Shown here: positions 24,386 to 32,808 of the stretch, piece after piece
How positions within the stretch are numbered: the stretch's first letter is position 1
Layout of the letters: each line of letters begins with the position of its first letter
Assembly: GCA_013289795.1 (NCBI GenBank)
Contig: JABCZH010000002.1
Span: forward strand, 186,001 to 250,000
DNA length: 64,000 nucleotides
Reading direction: 5' to 3'
Source of the DNA: Acidobacteriota bacterium
Lineage (GTDB): Bacteria > Acidobacteriota > Terriglobia > Terriglobales > Acidobacteriaceae
Notes under the pieces: model-generated
The model's input: only the letters and a program-made list of their open reading frames with translations
What the model was told of the DNA's origin: nothing
Databases searched by the model: none
Translations under genes and position numbers: made by a program

Positions 24386-27334
24386 ATGGCGCTAGTCCCA
24401 GGTACAAAACTCGGGCCGTACGAAATTGTTGCGCTGCTCGGCGCCGGTGGTATGGGGGAGGTGTATCGCGCGCGCGACATGAGGCTGCAGCGCACGGTGG
24501 CGATCAAGATCCTGCCTGCTCATTTATCTTCCAACCCGGAGTTGCATGCGCGCTTCGAGCAGGAAGCGAAGGCCATTTCCGGGCTGCAACATCCCAACAT
24601 CTGCGTGGTCCATGACGTCGGTTCACAAGATGGCATCGACTTCATGGTCATGGAGCATGTTGCCGGGAAAACCCTGGACAAGTTGATTCCTTCCGGTGGA
24701 CTGGAAACGGACTTCGCGACCAGGTACGCCGCACAAATCGCAGATGCCCTGGCGCACGCGCATGCCGCCGGTATCGTGCACCGCGACCTGAAACCTGCAA
24801 ACATCATGGTGGATGAGACCGGGCTGGTCAAAGTACTGGACTTCGGGCTGGCCAAACTTGCCGAGCCAGAGTCTGGGATGAGTCAGGCGATGACGATGGC
24901 GACGACACCCGGAATGATCGTGGGCACGGTCGCGTACATGTCCCCGGAGCAGGCGGAAGGCAAAGCGATTGACGCACATAGCGATGTCTTCTCCTTCGGT
25001 TCGGTGCTCTACGAGATGCTAACTGGCCGGAGAGCTTTCGAGGGGCAATCGAGTGCTGCGCTGCTTTCGGCGATCACGCGGGACGATCCGAAGCCGTTGA
25101 CTGAAATCAAACGTGATATCCCGGCGGAGGTTCGCCGGATCGTTTCTCGCTGCCTCGCGAAGGGCCCTGCGTCGCGATACGCTTCCGGCGCCGAACTCGC
25201 ACACGAACTGAGGCAATGTCGCGACCTGCTATTTCCTCAGTCCGGTGCCGTGCTAAGTCCTGCTCGGCTTGCGAGAGAGGTGCAGCGCCCCCGAGTACTG
25301 GTTCCACTTCTGCTGACCGTCATCATGCTTGGTTTGGCGGTGACTTGGCTGGTCAGGCGCTCTCGCGATGCCCGCTGGGCACGCGACGTGGCTTTGCCTC
25401 AGATCTCACAACTGGCGGATCAAGGGAAATTTGGTGAGGCCTACTCGGTCGCCGTAGAGGCTGAGAAGTCGATCCCGGGTGATCTCGCGCTGGCGAAGCT
25501 GTGGCCGGTGATTTCCCATCAACTCTCGCTGGAGACGACACCGCCCGGCGCGGATGTCTACCGCAAAGACTACGTCGATACCGGCGCAGCCTGGGAATCG
25601 GTAGGAAAGACTCCGCTAAAGAATGTCCGACAGCCGCGCGGGATGTTCGTGTGGAAGCTTGAGAAACCTGGGTTCGGCACGGTTTTGCGGACGACGGTAG
25701 CCCTGTTTCCCCGGAATGCCACCGGAGAGCCGGGGGAGGGGAGCGTGGCTCTTGACGAGATAGGAAAAATTCCACCGGGGATGGTAAGGGTCTCGCCGGG
25801 CAAATACTCCAAAACGCTATACATTCCCGGCTACGAAGGAATGCCTGAGTTGGCGTTGAAGGATTATTGGGTCGACCAGTACGAAGTGACCAACCACCAG
25901 TTTAAGGCGTTTGTGGATCAGGGGGGATATCAAAAGCACGAGTATTGGAAAATCGATTTCCGGCGGGACGGAAAACCTCTCTCGTGGGACGATGCGATGG
26001 CGCTGTTTCGCGATAGCGCCGGGCGGCCGGGGCCCAAGGACTGGATACAAGGTGAATACGCGAAAGGGCAGGACGACTTCCCTGTGACCGGTATCAGCTG
26101 GTATGAAGCGGCAGCCTATGCGGAGTTTGCCGGCAAGAGTCTGCCGACCATCTATCACTGGAACCGGGCTGCGGGACCCTTTTCCGCGTCTTTCATTGTG
26201 CCCGCAAGCAACTTCGGCGGCTCGGGGGTTTTGCCGGTCGGGAGCAAGCCAGGCATGAGTCCGTGGGGCAACTACGACATGGCGGGCAATGTGAAGGAGT
26301 GGATCTGGACGGAGGCACAGTCAGAGAAGCGTTATGTCCTCGGCGGAGCCTGGGACGAACCCACTTATATGTTCATTGATCCCGACGCGCAGTCTCCGTT
26401 TCTTCGCGCATCGAATGTAGGGTTCCGTTGTGTCAAATACATCGAACCGGAATCGATTCCCAAGATCGCTACCGATCCAATGCCTACGCCGCGGCGTGAT
26501 TTATCCAAAGAAAAGCCCGCCTCCGACCTGTTATACCAGGCCTATCTGGGCCAGTACTCCTATGACAAGACGGCGCTGAACGCTTCGGTAGAACCTTTTG
26601 GCCAGGACGAAGAAGATTGGAAAGCGGAGAGAATCACTTATACGGCCGGGTATGGAAATGAACGCGCGGTAGCCTATCTGTTTCTGCCGAAGAAAGCGAA
26701 GCCGCCATTCCAGACAGTCGTCTTCTTTCCGGGATCGAACGCACTCCAGCTACGGAAGTTCACGCTTTACACCACCGCAGCTCTGGATGCCATTTTGCGG
26801 AGCGGGCGCGCTGTACTGTACCCCGTCTACAAGAGCACGTATGAACGAGGCGATGGAATGGAATCTGATGTGCCGGACATGACCAGCACATGGCGGGACC
26901 ACGTGATCATGTGGGTCAAAGATGTCTCGCGGGCCATCGACTACGCTGAGACGCGCCCTGAACTGGATCACACCAAATTGGCGTACTACGGCTATAGCTG
27001 GGGCGCGGCCGAGGGAGGCTTGGTACCGGCGATAGAACCAAGGATCAAGGTTTGCGTCCTGGCGCTGGGCGGGCTCGAGTTCCAGCGCTCGCTGCCCGAA
27101 GTCGAGCCCATTAACTTTGTGTCTCGGGTGAAGCAGCCGGTTCTGATGCTGAATGGACGCTATGATTTCTTTTTTCCCGTGGAATCGAACCAGGAACCGT
27201 TCTACCAGTTGCTCGGATCAAGGAAAGACCAGAAGAAACACATACTCTACGACAGCGGCCACAACATTCCCCGCAATGAACTCATCAAGGAAACACTCAA
27301 CTGGCTGGATCAGTACTTGGGGCCGGTGAATTAG
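24386..27334 (+). CDS. Ser/Thr kinase - PEGA - FGE-sulfatase-like - alpha/beta hydrolase fusion
   Basis: 982 residues with four parts. (1) A Hanks-type kinase, residues 12-275: GAGGMGEVYRA, Lys41, catalytic HRDLKPAN (132-139), DFGLAK (152-157), MSPEQAEG. (2) A membrane helix at about 304-325, then a PEGA-like stretch (LETTPPGADVYRKDY, KLEKPGFGTVLR). (3) A formylglycine-generating-enzyme-like domain at about 460-690 (DYWVDQYEVTNHQFKAFV, GISWYEAAAYAEFAGKSLPT, YDMAGNVKEWIWTE, LGGAWDEP, NVGFRCVKY). I do not see the FGE catalytic cysteine pair, so oxidation of a sulfatase cysteine is unlikely. (4) A dienelactone-hydrolase-like alpha/beta hydrolase with nucleophile Ser871 (GYSWGAAEGG), an Asp after RYDFFFP and a C-terminal His (DSGHNIPRN). 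Topology puts the kinase in the cytoplasm and the rest outside. The gene is single and divergent from the TonB receptor. Confidence 0.93.
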   Translation: MALVPGTKLGPYEIVALLGAGGMGEVYRARDMRLQRTVAIKILPAHLSSNPELHARFEQEAKAISGLQHPNICVVHDVGSQDGIDFMVMEHVAGKTLDKLIPSGGLETDFATRYAAQIADALAHAHAAGIVHRDLKPANIMVDETGLVKVLDFGLAKLAEPESGMSQAMTMATTPGMIVGTVAYMSPEQAEGKAIDAHSDVFSFGSVLYEMLTGRRAFEGQSSAALLSAITRDDPKPLTEIKRDIPAEVRRIVSRCLAKGPASRYASGAELAHELRQCRDLLFPQSGAVLSPARLAREVQRPRVLVPLLLTVIMLGLAVTWLVRRSRDARWARDVALPQISQLADQGKFGEAYSVAVEAEKSIPGDLALAKLWPVISHQLSLETTPPGADVYRKDYVDTGAAWESVGKTPLKNVRQPRGMFVWKLEKPGFGTVLRTTVALFPRNATGEPGEGSVALDEIGKIPPGMVRVSPGKYSKTLYIPGYEGMPELALKDYWVDQYEVTNHQFKAFVDQGGYQKHEYWKIDFRRDGKPLSWDDAMALFRDSAGRPGPKDWIQGEYAKGQDDFPVTGISWYEAAAYAEFAGKSLPTIYHWNRAAGPFSASFIVPASNFGGSGVLPVGSKPGMSPWGNYDMAGNVKEWIWTEAQSEKRYVLGGAWDEPTYMFIDPDAQSPFLRASNVGFRCVKYIEPESIPKIATDPMPTPRRDLSKEKPASDLLYQAYLGQYSYDKTALNASVEPFGQDEEDWKAERITYTAGYGNERAVAYLFLPKKAKPPFQTVVFFPGSNALQLRKFTLYTTAALDAILRSGRAVLYPVYKSTYERGDGMESDVPDMTSTWRDHVIMWVKDVSRAIDYAETRPELDHTKLAYYGYSWGAAEGGLVPAIEPRIKVCVLALGGLEFQRSLPEVEPINFVSRVKQPVLMLNGRYDFFFPVESNQEPFYQLLGSRKDQKKHILYDSGHNIPRNELIKETLNWLDQYLGPVN

Positions 27335-27351: not shown

Positions 27352-28545
27352 CTACCGCTCTACCGCCATTGCCACAGCGTTGCCTCCACCGAGGCAAAGA
27401 GCCGCGATCCCGCGATGCACATCGCGGCGAATCATTTCGTAAATCAATGTGACCAGGACGCGCGCGCCGCTAGCGCCGATGGGATGGCCGATGGCGACCG
27501 CGCCGCCGTTCACATTCACCTTGTTAGGATCGAGACCGAGCTCGCGCATCACACCAAGAGCCTGCACCGAGAAAGCTTCGTTTAATTCGTAGAGATCGAC
27601 GTCTTCGTTCTTCCAACCAGTCTTCTCCCATATCGTGCGCACAGCGCCAACCGGAGCCATCATCACCCAACGGGGTTCGACGCCGCTGGTGGCTTGGGCC
27701 ACGATGCGGACCATGGGTTTCGCGCCCAATTCTTTGGCGCGGGTCGCACTGGTGACTACAACGGCGGCCGCGCCATCGTTCACTCCGGGCGCATTGCCCG
27801 CGGTGACGGTGCCGTCTTTCTTGAAGGCGGGCTTGAGGGAACGCAGGATTTCGATAGTGGTGTCTTCCCGCGGGGATTCATCCTTGTCAAAGATCACCGG
27901 GGCTTCGCCTTTCTTCTTCGCGGGCAGCTCCACGGGAACGATCTGCGATTTGAAGCGGCACTCCTTAATTGCGGATACTGCTTTGCGGTGCGAGTTCACA
28001 GCGAACTGATCCTGCTCTTCACGAGTGATGCCGTACTTCTCGGCGACGTTCTCGCCGGTGACGCCCATGTGGTAGTTGTTATAAATATCCCAGAGGCCAT
28101 CGTTGACCATGGAATCGATGACCTGCGCGTTGCCGAGGCGATATCCCTTGCGCGCCTGCGGCAAAAGATAAGGCGCGTTGGTCATGGACTCCATTCCGCC
28201 CGCAACCACGATGGAACCGTTTCCGGTTTGAATGGCTTGCGCTGCGAGCGCGACGGCTTTGAGTCCGGAGCCACAAACCTTGTTTATAGTCATGGCACCC
28301 ACTTCAGGCGCGAGACCTCCGAAGATGGCGGCCTGGCGGGCGGGATTCTGTCCGAGCCCCGCGGAAATCACGTTGCCCATGATGCATTCGTCCACTTGCT
28401 TGGGATCAAGGTTGGCGCGTTTGACTGCCTCACGCACTGCGATCGCACCAATTTGAGGAGCGGGCAGATCGGAGAGGCTTCCTTGAAATTTTCCCACCGG
28501 GGTGCGACAACCGGAAATGATAACAACATCGTCGAAAGCGGCCAT
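27352..28545 (-). CDS. Acetyl-CoA acetyltransferase (thiolase)
   Basis: 397 residues, full length. [19 protein letters not shown] starts the fold; [16 protein letters not shown] carries the acyl-accepting Cys (about residue 90), and [21 protein letters not shown] and [12 protein letters not shown] hold the catalytic His and second Cys. The enzyme condenses two acetyl-CoA or cleaves acetoacetyl-CoA, serving in fatty or branched acyl breakdown or polymer synthesis. AGGAG lies 7 bp before the ATG. It is convergent with the kinase fusion gene; no other beta-oxidation gene adjoins. Confidence 0.95.
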
Positions 28546-28809: not shown

Positions 28810-28853
28810 GATGTCATTTTTTTCTTGACATCACTTTTCAATGACTCTAGATT
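28810..28853 (+). promoter_or_regulatory. Promoter and operator-like repeat of the micro-gene
   Basis: TTGACA (28825-28830), a 17-bp spacer and TAGATT (28848-28853) form a strong sigma-70 promoter. A perfect inverted repeat GATGTCA-N9-TGACATC (28810-28832) covers the -35 box and could be an operator. Transcription should begin near 28860. Confidence 0.72.
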
Positions 28854-28915
28854 TCAATCAGTCGCAGCAAACGATCGTTGCGAATCCATGAACAATGGAA
28901 AGGGAGAATAGTTAA

Positions 28916-28963
28916 ATGGCAACCAAGAAGAAAGCAAAGAAGGCTGGCAAGAAGAAACACTAA
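28916..28963 (+). CDS. 15-residue lysine-rich micro-protein
   Basis: The open frame MATKKKAKKAGKKKH is 15 codons, nine of them lysine. AGGGAGA lies 9 bp before the ATG; a consensus promoter stands about 55 nt upstream of the leader's end and a strong terminator follows 24 bp after the stop, so a transcript of about 155 nt holds just this frame. The composition resembles the lysine/alanine-rich tails of histone-H1-like and other nucleic-acid-binding proteins, so RNA or DNA binding is a guess. I know no named family. The same transcript could also work as a small RNA. Confidence 0.6.
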   Translation: MATKKKAKKAGKKKH

Positions 28964-28987
28964 GCCTTCACTCAAGGCAAAAAGCAA

Positions 28988-29018
28988 AGGGGACGCGGAA
29001 AGCGTCCCCTAAGTTTTT
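28988..29018 (+). terminator. Rho-independent terminator of the micro-gene
   Basis: A perfect 9-bp stem AGGGGACGC/GCGTCCCCT with a GGAAA loop is followed by AAGTTTTT. It starts 24 bp after the 15-codon frame. Confidence 0.9.
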
Positions 29019-29065: not shown

Positions 29066-32059
29066 CTACGAGCTTCCTGACAGCCGCTTCTCGGTTGCAG
29101 GACACAACACCCGATAGGCGCAAAAACGGCAGCTGAAGCTGGGTTTGGCGTCAAACTTCCCTTCTGCAATGTTTTGTGCCACGTCTTCCACCCTGGCCTT
29201 GGCCGCCTGAAGCTGAGTTTCATTGCGGTGGGTAAGGACGGAAGTGTTCTCACTCAGATTGTAGAAAGCCAGATGATCGGCGCGGTATCCCCACTTCGTC
29301 TGGGCAGCGAGGGCGTAGATCGAAAGCTGCAGGCTCTCGTCCGCGTCCTCCTGCGACAGCGGCTTGCCGGTCTTGTAGTCGGTGATGACGACGCGTCCGT
29401 CGGGTAGCTTGTCGACGCGATCGATCCGCCCGGCGATCGTAGTTGCACCGACTTTCACCTCGAAGAATTCCTCGGTGTGCAACACTTCCGGCATTTCACC
29501 CCGGCGGCCAACGGCCAGGAATTCCTTGAGCTGCTCGATCCCCTGCTGTAGATAGAGATCGTGTTGATAGGCGTCTTGAATCCTAGCGTCAGCCAGGTCG
29601 GTGCCGAACAGGTCGAGCAGCGACTCTTCCGTCATGGGACGGCCCTGCCGGACAGAATCGTAGTAAGCCCGCAGCACACGGTGCATAGTTCCACCGTATT
29701 GCATGGCGGCGGGGACCTCTCCAGGAATCCGCCACTCGCGATCGAGCTTGAACTGGAGCGGACAGGTTTCGTAGGTCTGCACTGCACTGGCGCTGAGGCG
29801 GGCGCTCAGATCAGAGACCGGCGACAGGGCGACCCAGGCGGCCACACCCACCGGTGGCGGACTCGCCTGCGCGAAGATGTCGGGCTGGAAACCACGGGGC
29901 TGGCGCTGGCGCAAATAGCGACGTAGTCCGGGGTCCTTGAGAAGGGGCCGCAGGTAGCCGGCGGGCGTGGGATCCGTTTTGCCCGTTCCTCCTTTGGCAT
30001 AAATCGTAAGCGAGTCGCGGGCACGAGTCATGGCCACGTAAAACAGGCGTCGCTCTTCTTGCTCATGAAGGGTTTTGTCGTCTTCTGGTACCAGCGACTC
30101 GGGATCGCGGAGTTCGCGGGGAAATTCCACCAGCGACTCCTTGTATGACGCGGGGAACGAGGGAGAATTGGCGCGGAGAATGGCAACGTGGTCGAACTCG
30201 AGCCCTTTGGCAGTGTGGGCGGTCATGAGGCGGACGGCGTCAACTTCGGGCGATGACATGGGAACGGCGCCACCCGCTTCGCGGAAGTAATCGAGATACT
30301 CGAGCAGTTCGGAAATCTGGCCGGTGGTGGTGATGGGCTTCTCTTCCCACCGGCGAACAAAGTCGAGGATGGCAGCCAGAGCGGGCGAAGTGCGATCGAA
30401 CCTGAAGCTGCGTACGATGATCTCGACCGCGGCGCGCCCCTTGGCATTGGTCCTGGTGATTTCATCCCGTACTTGCTGGATCGAGTCGAGCACGGCTGTG
30501 CCCCCCGGAATTTTCTCTAAGACGTCGCCGACACCGCCGGTCTCCTGGTTTCGCGGCAACGCACGAATTCCTGCGCGCAGTTTTTCGGGGTCGATGGTGA
30601 ACTGAGGCAATGCGGCTACGCGGAACAAACTGGCATCGTCTCTCACGGAAACGACTGCACCCAAGCTGGCGAACAGATCGCGGGCCTGAGGAGTGTCCAT
30701 CACATCCATGTTCTCGATGGAGAAAGGGATTCTCTGCTCAACCAGTTCAGCCGCCAGATCGTCGCGATGAAGATGCTGGCGATAGAGAACCGCGAGGTCT
30801 TTCCAGTCACAACGGGATTCGCGGCGACGCTGGCGGAGCAACGTGGCGACGTCCGAACACTCGAGGTCGCGGTCTTTGGGTCCCAGGATCACGGCTTCGA
30901 CGGGAAGGCTGGGCACAGTCTTGCCAGCGTGGGCAGCGTCTTCCTCACGAGCTGAGGTCAGCGGCGCGCGCTGAAAGCGAGCACCACCCGGACTGCTGGA
31001 AACGAAGTCAGGGTTCTTCGCGATGAGAGCGTGGGCGGTCTTCAAGATGGGCGTGGTGGAGCGGCGGTTCTTTTCCAGAGCGACGATCCTGGCTGCGGGG
31101 AAGTTGTGCTGAAAAAGAGAAAACGCCGCGCTGGAAGCGCCGCGAAAACGGTAGATGGCCTGGTCGGGATCGCCGACGGCGAAAACGTTCTGGTCGTCGC
31201 CCGCCAGGTTCTGCAGGATTTTGACTTGGGCAAAGTTGGCGTCCTGAAATTCGTCCACCAGAATGAAGCGAGCATGTTCCTTTTCACGCGCGAGCAGCGC
31301 TGGGTCGTCGCACAGCAAATCGTGAGCGCGTGTGATCATGTGGCCAAAGGTGCCGAGATTCTGTTCGCGAAGCATGACCTCGACCTGGGTGAACACACGG
31401 GAAATCTCGCGGCAGCGGCCCAGGACTTCCTCGTCGGTGAGGGCTCCTGCCTCTTTGGATTTCGCCACGCGCGGGATAGGCAATTCTCCGCGCTCCACCT
31501 GCTGAACATACTGCACATACCTTTCCGGGCCCACCAGTTCGTCCTGACAGCGGCGCATGAAGTCGAGAAGGTCGTGCAGGAACTTGCCGACATTGGCTGG
31601 GATCACGAAATGCTTCAGGTTTAGGTCGCGGAGCCTTTTTCGCAGGAAAATCCATTGATCGTAGTCATCGAGCACGCCAAACTGCCTGCCGTTGCGAATC
31701 AGCAGGTTGTTGCAGTAGGCATGAAAGGTGGCCACTTGCGAGTCTTTGGCCTTACTGCCGAGCTCGGCTTGCAGCCGTTCGCGCATTTCCGCAGCGGCAT
31801 TGTCGGTGTAAGTGAGGGCAAGGATTTCCTCAGGCCGGGCGTGTCCTCCCTGGACTAGTTGCGCGATGCGTCGGATCAAGACGGTAGTTTTGCCGGTGCC
31901 AGCGCCGGCAATGACCAGCAAAGGGCCGTGCGGATGATTGATGGCCTCGCGCTGGCGGTCGTCAGGCTCGAAGGTGGGTGCGGGGATGCGTTTTGACAGC
32001 GCCACTGGGCAGGAGGATATCAGAGTTCGCCGACAGGATGTTCGTGGGTTTCGCGGCAT
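29066..32059 (-). CDS. UvrD/PcrA-like helicase fused to an AddB-type PD-(D/E)XK nuclease
   Basis: 997 residues from an ATG; a GTG at 32005 would remove 18 residues and is also possible, as neither start has a good Shine-Dalgarno. The superfamily 1 helicase shows Q-motif DDRQREAINHP, Walker A VIAGAGTGKTTVLIRRI, ALTYTDNAAAEMRERL, FILVDEFQDANFAQVKIL, VGDPDQAIYRFRGAS and LMTAHTAKGLEFDHVAI. The last ~230 residues are a RecB-type nuclease (YETCPLQFKLD, RIDRVDKLPDGRVVITDYKTGKPLS) with CRFCAYRVLC. The Cys in YETC plus these three give the four-cysteine iron-sulfur set of AddB/AdnAB-type nucleases. It probably resects DNA ends in double-strand break repair. No AddA/AdnA partner is adjacent. Confidence 0.92.
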   Translation of the reverse strand: MPRNPRTSCRRTLISSCPVALSKRIPAPTFEPDDRQREAINHPHGPLLVIAGAGTGKTTVLIRRIAQLVQGGHARPEEILALTYTDNAAAEMRERLQAELGSKAKDSQVATFHAYCNNLLIRNGRQFGVLDDYDQWIFLRKRLRDLNLKHFVIPANVGKFLHDLLDFMRRCQDELVGPERYVQYVQQVERGELPIPRVAKSKEAGALTDEEVLGRCREISRVFTQVEVMLREQNLGTFGHMITRAHDLLCDDPALLAREKEHARFILVDEFQDANFAQVKILQNLAGDDQNVFAVGDPDQAIYRFRGASSAAFSLFQHNFPAARIVALEKNRRSTTPILKTAHALIAKNPDFVSSSPGGARFQRAPLTSAREEDAAHAGKTVPSLPVEAVILGPKDRDLECSDVATLLRQRRRESRCDWKDLAVLYRQHLHRDDLAAELVEQRIPFSIENMDVMDTPQARDLFASLGAVVSVRDDASLFRVAALPQFTIDPEKLRAGIRALPRNQETGGVGDVLEKIPGGTAVLDSIQQVRDEITRTNAKGRAAVEIIVRSFRFDRTSPALAAILDFVRRWEEKPITTTGQISELLEYLDYFREAGGAVPMSSPEVDAVRLMTAHTAKGLEFDHVAILRANSPSFPASYKESLVEFPRELRDPESLVPEDDKTLHEQEERRLFYVAMTRARDSLTIYAKGGTGKTDPTPAGYLRPLLKDPGLRRYLRQRQPRGFQPDIFAQASPPPVGVAAWVALSPVSDLSARLSASAVQTYETCPLQFKLDREWRIPGEVPAAMQYGGTMHRVLRAYYDSVRQGRPMTEESLLDLFGTDLADARIQDAYQHDLYLQQGIEQLKEFLAVGRRGEMPEVLHTEEFFEVKVGATTIAGRIDRVDKLPDGRVVITDYKTGKPLSQEDADESLQLSIYALAAQTKWGYRADHLAFYNLSENTSVLTHRNETQLQAAKARVEDVAQNIAEGKFDAKPSFSCRFCAYRVLCPATEKRLSGSS

Positions 32060-32097: not shown

Positions 32098-32808
32098 TTA
32101 CCGCCGAAGCTCGGAGAGCACAACTGCCAAGGCTGCGATGGCTGCGGTCTCGGCGCGAAGGATGGTATCGCCAAGAGACGCCGACAACCATCCAGCGTCG
32201 CGGAACTGGTCTAACTCTGGCTCCGTCCACCCGCCCTCGGGGCCGAGAGCGAGGACAATGTCGGACGCTGCTGACTGAAGAGCGTCTATCAGCATGAGGC
32301 CTTTTTCTGACTCCGAGAGCAGAATGCGGACGCTCCCCTGCAACGCAAGTGCGTCCTTGAGCTTGATCGGTTGAAATACCTCGGGAGGCGAGACCCGGCG
32401 GGACTGCTCGGCTGCCTGGCGGACGATTCGCTGCCAGCGTTCAACGCGCTTGGCTGCGACGGCGGCCAAATGAGACTCGGTGCGGCTGGCGATTACCGGA
32501 ACAATGCGTGCCACGCCAAGCTCGGTGCACTTTTCGATTGCCCACTCGATGCGGTCGAACTTGAAGACGGAGAGTGCCAGGGTGACGTGCGGAGGACTGG
32601 GGACCGGAATGACTTCACCCAACTCTAATTCCACACGATCCGTCTGGATGCGGGTGATGCGCCCACGACGAACTTCGTCGCCGGCAGCGATGTCGAATTC
32701 CTGGCCAACCTGTGCGCGGAGCACCCGGGACAAGTGCTCGGCATGGGATCCGACGAGGCTCGCGTGATTCCCAGAAACTTCGTCGGCGATCCAGCGGCGT
32801 CGGGTCAT
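32098..32808 (-). CDS. rsmE: 16S rRNA (uracil1498-N3)-methyltransferase
   Basis: 236 residues. The N-terminal PUA-like RNA-binding domain (RRRWIADEVSGNHASLVGSHAEHLSRVLRAQVGQEFDI) and the SPOUT knotted methyltransferase domain (VARIVPVIASRTESHL, WQRIVRQAAEQSRRVSPPEV, VLALGPEGGWTEPELDQFRDAGW, SLGDTILRAETAAIAAL) are both clear. The enzyme uses S-adenosylmethionine to methylate U1498 of 16S rRNA in the assembled small subunit. It sits between the chaperone operon and the helicase gene on the same strand; a CACAGAG repeat separates it from dnaJ. Confidence 0.95.
   Translation of the reverse strand: MTRRRWIADEVSGNHASLVGSHAEHLSRVLRAQVGQEFDIAAGDEVRRGRITRIQTDRVELELGEVIPVPSPPHVTLALSVFKFDRIEWAIEKCTELGVARIVPVIASRTESHLAAVAAKRVERWQRIVRQAAEQSRRVSPPEVFQPIKLKDALALQGSVRILLSESEKGLMLIDALQSAASDIVLALGPEGGWTEPELDQFRDAGWLSASLGDTILRAETAAIAALAVVLSELRR

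Follow-up and report, generated by a model that had tools for sequence, protein, structure and literature searches.

A probable lysine-rich protein gene of 15 codons, conserved with its own promoter and terminator in soil Acidobacteria

Histone H1-like proteins and tails, including Hc2 of Chlamydia (PF07382) and the C-terminal tails of AlgP and PhaF of Pseudomonas, represent the closest described kind of protein to the micro-gene product reported here. These proteins and tails are of low complexity, rich in Lys and Ala (and Pro), strongly basic and variable in length by repeat units, and they are presumed to bind polyanions through charge; binding to DNA is known for KPAA-repeat peptides, and AlgP, which carries a lysine-rich tail, is associated with polyphosphate granules (PMC9239181). 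The micro-peptide shares the composition, the basic character and the length variation, and a charge-based mode of binding is proposed for it; however, the H1-like systems are tails or proteins of more than 100 residues, with a separate N-terminal domain in AlgP, whereas the micro-peptide is entire at 12-30 residues. DUF6496 proteins (PF20106) of Acidobacteria have an N-terminus of the same MATKKAAKK type as the micro-peptide; the DUF6496 proteins L037, L200 and L201 are 85-126 aa long, and L037 and L201 are encoded downstream of a GGGAGAAT Shine-Dalgarno region. In these proteins, a conserved C-terminal domain follows the K/A stretch, whereas the micro-frame stops after 15 codons, without such a domain. 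DUF6496 proteins may conceivably be the source or the replacement of the micro-peptide; none was found in the genome under study, but the search controls were also silent.

Two further groups invite comparison. Dual-function small RNAs (e.g., SgrS/SgrT, SR1/SR1P, and VcdRP) likewise combine a short autonomous transcript, a structured leader, a tiny frame, and an intrinsic terminator, and the persistence of the micro-gene RNA without the frame in one sub-clade is a further point of resemblance. The micro-gene differs from them in that no target or Hfq dependence is known for its RNA and in that the peptide is conserved without the RNA in a second gene, here called paralogue B. The ribosomal proteins bTHX and bS22 are tiny and extremely basic, like the micro-peptide; by contrast with them, the micro-peptide contains no Arg and no aromatic or hydrophobic anchor residues, and no sequence match was found in solved structures.

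Anatomy and leader structure of the unit

The micro-gene was studied in a 64-kb stretch of acidobacterial DNA, referred to as the window, and all coordinates of the unit are window positions (Table 1). The anatomy of the unit is shown; its transcription is inferred. The promoter matches 10 of 12 consensus positions, and its spacing is the same in 129 of 130 relatives; the -10 hexamer of the window is a weaker variant of what is mostly TATACA elsewhere. The Shine-Dalgarno region does not vary in either of two alignments (34 and 20 members). The micro-ORF is the only ATG frame in the window that spans 10-40 codons and consists of Lys to 50% or more, and no frame meeting the same criteria arose in 40 Markov-1 simulations of the window.

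Table 1. Positions of the micro-gene unit and its neighbours in the window
Feature	Position	Strand	Basis
Complete transcription unit around the 15-codon frame	28825-29018	+	
Sigma-70-type promoter, TTGACA-N17-TAGATT	28825-28853	+	consensus scan; spacing in relatives
-35 element, TTGACA (followed by 17-nt spacer)	28825-28830	+	
-10 element, TAGATT	28848-28853	+	
Leader hairpin 1, TCGCAGC-N8-GTTGCGA	arms 28862-28868/28877-28883	+	fold; covariation
Leader hairpin 2, TCCAT-N5-ATGGA	arms 28885-28889/28895-28899	+	fold; changes on both sides in relatives
Shine-Dalgarno region GGGAGAA, first part of highly conserved GGGAGAATAG	28902-28908	+	invariant in alignments
Micro-ORF MATKKKAKKAGKKKH plus stop (ATG 28916; TAA 28961-28963; 15 codons)	28916-28963	+	open and conserved in 130 loci; third-position bias
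AAGGCAAA, copy of AGGCAA motif in the stop-to-terminator linker	28974-28981	+	motif count in linkers
Intrinsic terminator AGGGGACGC-N5-GCGTCCCCT plus T-run	28988-29018	+	terminator scan; stems in relatives
Terminator stem arms, G+C-rich (T-run to 29018)	28988-28996/29002-29010	+	
Thiolase gene, conserved upstream neighbour	27352-28545	-	Pfam Thiolase_N/C
UvrD-type helicase gene with PD-(D/E)XK nuclease domain; next gene downstream, convergent	29066-32059	-	Pfam
RsmE-type RNA methyltransferase gene	32098-32808	-	Pfam PF04452

Both leader hairpins lie downstream of the -10 element and therefore act in the RNA. Covariation of hairpin 1 is shown in two families: in the family of the window (f1), its arms are 92.6% paired across 34 sequences, with 19 cells altered on both arms against 6.1 in shuffles, and in a second large family (f6) the corresponding figures are 10 and 3.6. 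Its loop length differs among relatives. The arms of hairpin 2 read TCGAT/ATCGA, TCCAC/GTGGA and similar in relatives, i.e., they change on both sides. The fold of the putative 158-nt transcript lies 4.7 sd below dinucleotide shuffles (z -4.7) and is predicted to leave the ribosome site largely open 3' of the leader hairpins, which may thus serve 5'-end protection and strong translation. No Rfam family reached its gathering score in the window; the best sub-threshold match was S15, on the opposite strand, at 13.8 bits against a cut-off of 39.5. Between the stop codon and the terminator, a conserved and unpaired AGGCAA motif occurs in 49 of 102 distinct linker sequences against 1.2 expected in shuffles, although these sequences are related and hence not independent.

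The letters of the terminator stem differ among relatives and its pairing is retained. A dispersed, REP-like terminator was considered and rejected, as the stem is present only once in the genome. The segment 28988-29010 also scores as a terminator on the minus strand, and a convergent helicase transcript, from the gene ending at 29066, could possibly share it.

An earlier note, made from sequence alone, had described a promoter with an operator-like inverted repeat, a Shine-Dalgarno region, an ATG-to-stop frame of 15 codons with nine Lys, and a terminator. Promoter, Shine-Dalgarno region, frame, and terminator were all present where it had placed them. The count of Lys did not hold, as the peptide contains 8. 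The inverted repeat is real; its role as a repressor operator, i.e., a DNA site, was rejected because the repeat is transcribed, its arms covary, and its loop varies in length, so that it is better described as an RNA hairpin. The second leader hairpin had been overlooked.

Conservation, locus and coding signature

Conservation of the unit is shown by several searches. When 251 bases of the unit served as a DNA query, 22 of 41 related genomes contained a match, and the frame was intact in all 20 loci read from this search, each from a different genus, even though intactness had not been a selection criterion. A pattern scan of named genomes yielded at least 117 loci, which represent the micro-gene in Acidobacteria subdivision 1 except for the DUF6496 gene L037 and two unrelated chance matches that were discarded (L023, in Motilimonas, and L131); carriers include Edaphobacter, Granulicella-named isolates, Terracidiphilus, and Sulfotelmatobacter. 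With a covariance model (R1), 71 of the 74 genomes sampled from the same family each gave one match to the unit, and the frame was intact in all 36 of the model-found loci that were tested. In a phylum sample, R1 found no unit outside the class, and a search of a plasmid collection gave no match to the unit. Across 130 loci the frame is open over 12-30 codons, and the peptides contain, besides the initial M, only K (52%), A, T, P, H, S, V, and G.

Homologues extend to other families of the class. In f6, a query from genome G072 matched 60 of the 61 genomes, each of which represents a different genus, some of the matches consisting of K/A codons only; 19 of the best 20 loci showed the same layout, with peptides of the type MK(N/S/T/Y)ATKKAA..., such as MKNATKKAAKKAPAKKAAAKKKK. 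R1 recovered f6 units at their true sites, and a model trained on f6 units only (R2) correctly located an f1 unit (genome G004); this reciprocal recovery supports homology between the units of the two families. One genome in each of two further families (f3 and f11) showed the same layout, with peptides MAKKPAKKAAKKKK and MKCATKKPAKKKAKKK. The micro-gene is thus kept in soil Acidobacteria of no fewer than four families, together with its promoter, the RNA hairpins, the ribosome site, and its terminator. At one f6 locus (L295; G308 C3:38600-39900), the promoter and hairpin region are apparently retained and the frame reads MKDTTKRLPSG..., which is not K/A-only; this may represent another loss of the frame.

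That the frame is coding is supported at the codon level. Differences at codon positions 1, 2, and 3 amount to 16, 14, and 44%, respectively, and codons with a single difference are synonymous in 2916 cases and non-synonymous in 339; the first four codons, which had been selected by the search pattern, were excluded. Frame length changes by whole codons among relatives. The codon-level signature of a small protein-coding gene is thus shown across distant relatives; transcription and translation are inferred, without support from expression data.

The chromosomal locus is shared by the 71 sampled family genomes that carry the unit, with the order thiolase, micro-gene, helicase (in part of the loci), rsmE, dnaJ. 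The thiolase gene lies upstream in antisense at 81 of 130 loci, many of the others being too short to show it. Further upstream in the window (24386-27334, plus strand), we observed a gene for a 982-aa protein with Ser/Thr protein kinase and sulfatase-modifying-factor (FGE) domains, the C-terminal region of which we take to be esterase-like. Downstream of the unit lies an antisense helicase gene (56 loci) or rsmE in co-directional (43) or antisense (21) orientation. Since the downstream gene varies in identity and orientation, and is convergent in the window, the unit is autonomous and not the leader of one gene; it has its own conserved promoter and terminator and is not tied to any one downstream gene, its transcription being inferred.

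These data bear directly on the possibility that the frame encodes a leader peptide or attenuator of a downstream gene such as rsmE, with ribosomes stalling at Lys codons before the terminator. In favor of this explanation, a Lys-rich frame is followed by a terminator, and rsmE is co-directional downstream in 43 compared loci. Against it, the next gene is an antisense helicase in the window and in 56 relatives, RsmE is not an enzyme of lysine biosynthesis, peptide length and number of Lys vary freely, and the predicted fold contains no antiterminator hairpin that would compete with the terminator. We consider an attenuator very unlikely and rejected it for rsmE, as frame and RNA are conserved in the window, where the downstream gene is antisense.

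Paralogue B and frame-less relatives

The genome that contains the window (G000) carries a second, unlinked gene outside the window (contig C13:43148-43174; loci L202 and L249), which we refer to as paralogue B, the window-type unit being A. Its peptide, MATKKKAAKKKKKH, is nearly identical to that of the window, whereas its promoter (TTGACATTC / CAATATCTTG), leader, Shine-Dalgarno region (GGAGGA), and terminator show no relation to the corresponding parts of the window unit. It is flanked by what we take, from the sequence, to be a flgJ-like flagellar gene and a hydantoinase-like gene. Relatives of paralogue B encode M(A/P)(T/A/P/M)KKKA(A)KKKKKH and occur in approximately half of the sampled genomes of the family, although the homology searches also caught some A copies. 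In 11 genomes, A and B peptides differed by 2.3 edits within a genome and by 3.4 across genomes (P 0.0004), a P value that is optimistic because the genomes are related. This peptide-level paralogue is shown, and as the A and B units have only the peptide in common, selection must act on the peptide.

A pure small RNA with an accidental frame is therefore very unlikely. The short frame, the strong RNA structure, and the loss of the frame in one sub-clade speak for it; the 130 loci at which the frame is open, its changes in length by whole codons, the third-position bias, and the conservation of the peptide alone in paralogue B speak against it.

The sub-clade in question comprises 13 Terriglobus and Granulicella loci (genera g36 and g38; L178-L186, L188, and L206-L208), which retain the promoter, hairpin 1, GGGAG, and the terminator and have no K-rich frame. 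A pattern search found no short MATKK-type frame elsewhere in these genomes. The peptide is thus not required in these genera, where the RNA may serve a purpose of its own. At the same time, rsmE lies directly downstream and co-directional in the frame-less loci, which leaves two readings, i.e., an RNA with its own function or a promoter retained for rsmE. The AGGCAA linker motif favors the former; synteny permits the latter.

It is accordingly possible that the transcript is both a small regulatory RNA and the mRNA of the peptide, comparable to SgrS/SgrT and VcdRP, and that Terriglobus and Granulicella have retained the RNA function only. Besides the frame-less loci in two genera, the conserved unpaired linker motif and the covarying leader hairpins support this explanation. 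Against it, the promoter in the frame-less genera may have been kept for rsmE expression, the motif is phylogenetically non-independent, and paralogue B has a wholly different RNA.

The earlier note had proposed a real, autonomous gene that automatic pipelines would miss, had suggested a search of related genomes for conservation of promoter, frame, and terminator, and had held that relatives keeping the RNA without the frame would refute the gene in favor of a small RNA. Autonomy is supported by the unit's own promoter and terminator and the variable downstream gene, and coding by third-position bias, in-frame length changes, and paralogue B; conservation was found in the 71 of 74 family genomes given above. 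RNA kept without the frame was met in Terriglobus/Granulicella only, which is compatible with a dual role of the RNA and gives no small-RNA verdict elsewhere. That pipelines miss the gene is plausible, although no annotated records were compared.

Proposed function and significance

We consider it likely that the unit is a genuine, autonomously transcribed 15-codon protein gene and that its product is a polycation, which would probably bind DNA, RNA, or polyphosphate; transcription, high expression, translation, and binding are all inferred. In the proposed mechanism, the sigma-70-type promoter would give rise to an mRNA of approximately 155-160 nt, closed by the intrinsic terminator, the two leader hairpins would protect its 5' end while the ribosome site stays unpaired, and the GGGAG Shine-Dalgarno sequence would direct translation of a peptide of 12-30 residues. 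This peptide would be a disordered polycation of KK/KKA units, resembling a histone-H1/Hc2/AlgP tail without the globular domain, and would most likely act by charge on polyanions (DNA, RNA/ribosome, or polyphosphate), a proposal that rests on composition only. A charge-based binder is favored because composition and length variation match H1-like tails, KPAA peptides bind DNA, and AlgP is found on polyphosphate granules. By inference, nucleic acid is favored over polyphosphate as the ligand, with a place in the ribosome as a rival.

According to this rival explanation, the product is a very small protein of the ribosome or associated with it, comparable to bTHX or bS22, and not a nucleoid or polyphosphate binder. 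The peptide is tiny and very basic, the leader architecture is that of a strongly expressed gene, and the unit adjoins rsmE, a 16S rRNA methyltransferase gene, in many relatives. However, solved structures, many ribosomes included, contained no sequence match (to a 30-aa variant as query, a K/A-only query being nearly untestable), rsmE was not seen beside the f6 element, and sequence and length vary more than would be expected for a fixed rRNA pocket. A ribosomal protein thus appears unlikely, and a charge-based polyanion binder remains our preferred reading.

A bolder reading, which is no more than possible, is that the unit is an ancient acidobacterial dual-function RNA, the peptide arm of which is a free-standing K/A polycation of 12-30 residues (in effect a bare histone tail with a role in the nucleoid, at the ribosome, or on polyphosphate) that was copied into a second unit and was lost in Terriglobus/Granulicella, where the RNA arm would still be used.

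A Pfam/NCBIfam scan of three peptides assigned no family, two having no match and the third scoring far below the HC2 cut-off; the best HC2 (PF07382) score was 19.2 bits against a cut-off of 40, for one 32-aa variant only, and the peptide of the window, at 15 aa, is not long enough for a score. In the literature searched, coverage of which was partial, we found no description of the micro-gene family. It thus appears to be a new, undescribed small-protein family, although the closest kind, H1-like tails, is already known. Lys/Ala proteins of 12-15 residues fall under the length limit of most gene callers and are too low in complexity for homology search, so that a class-wide gene family can stay unannotated; the covariance model provides a means of detecting it. 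Acidobacteria are dominant soil bacteria, the nucleoid and small-protein biology of which is almost unknown. The micro-peptide represents a natural minimal polycation for polyanion-binding tests, and the cultured genera Edaphobacter, which has the frame, and Terriglobus and Granulicella, which lack it, offer a way of separating peptide function from RNA function.
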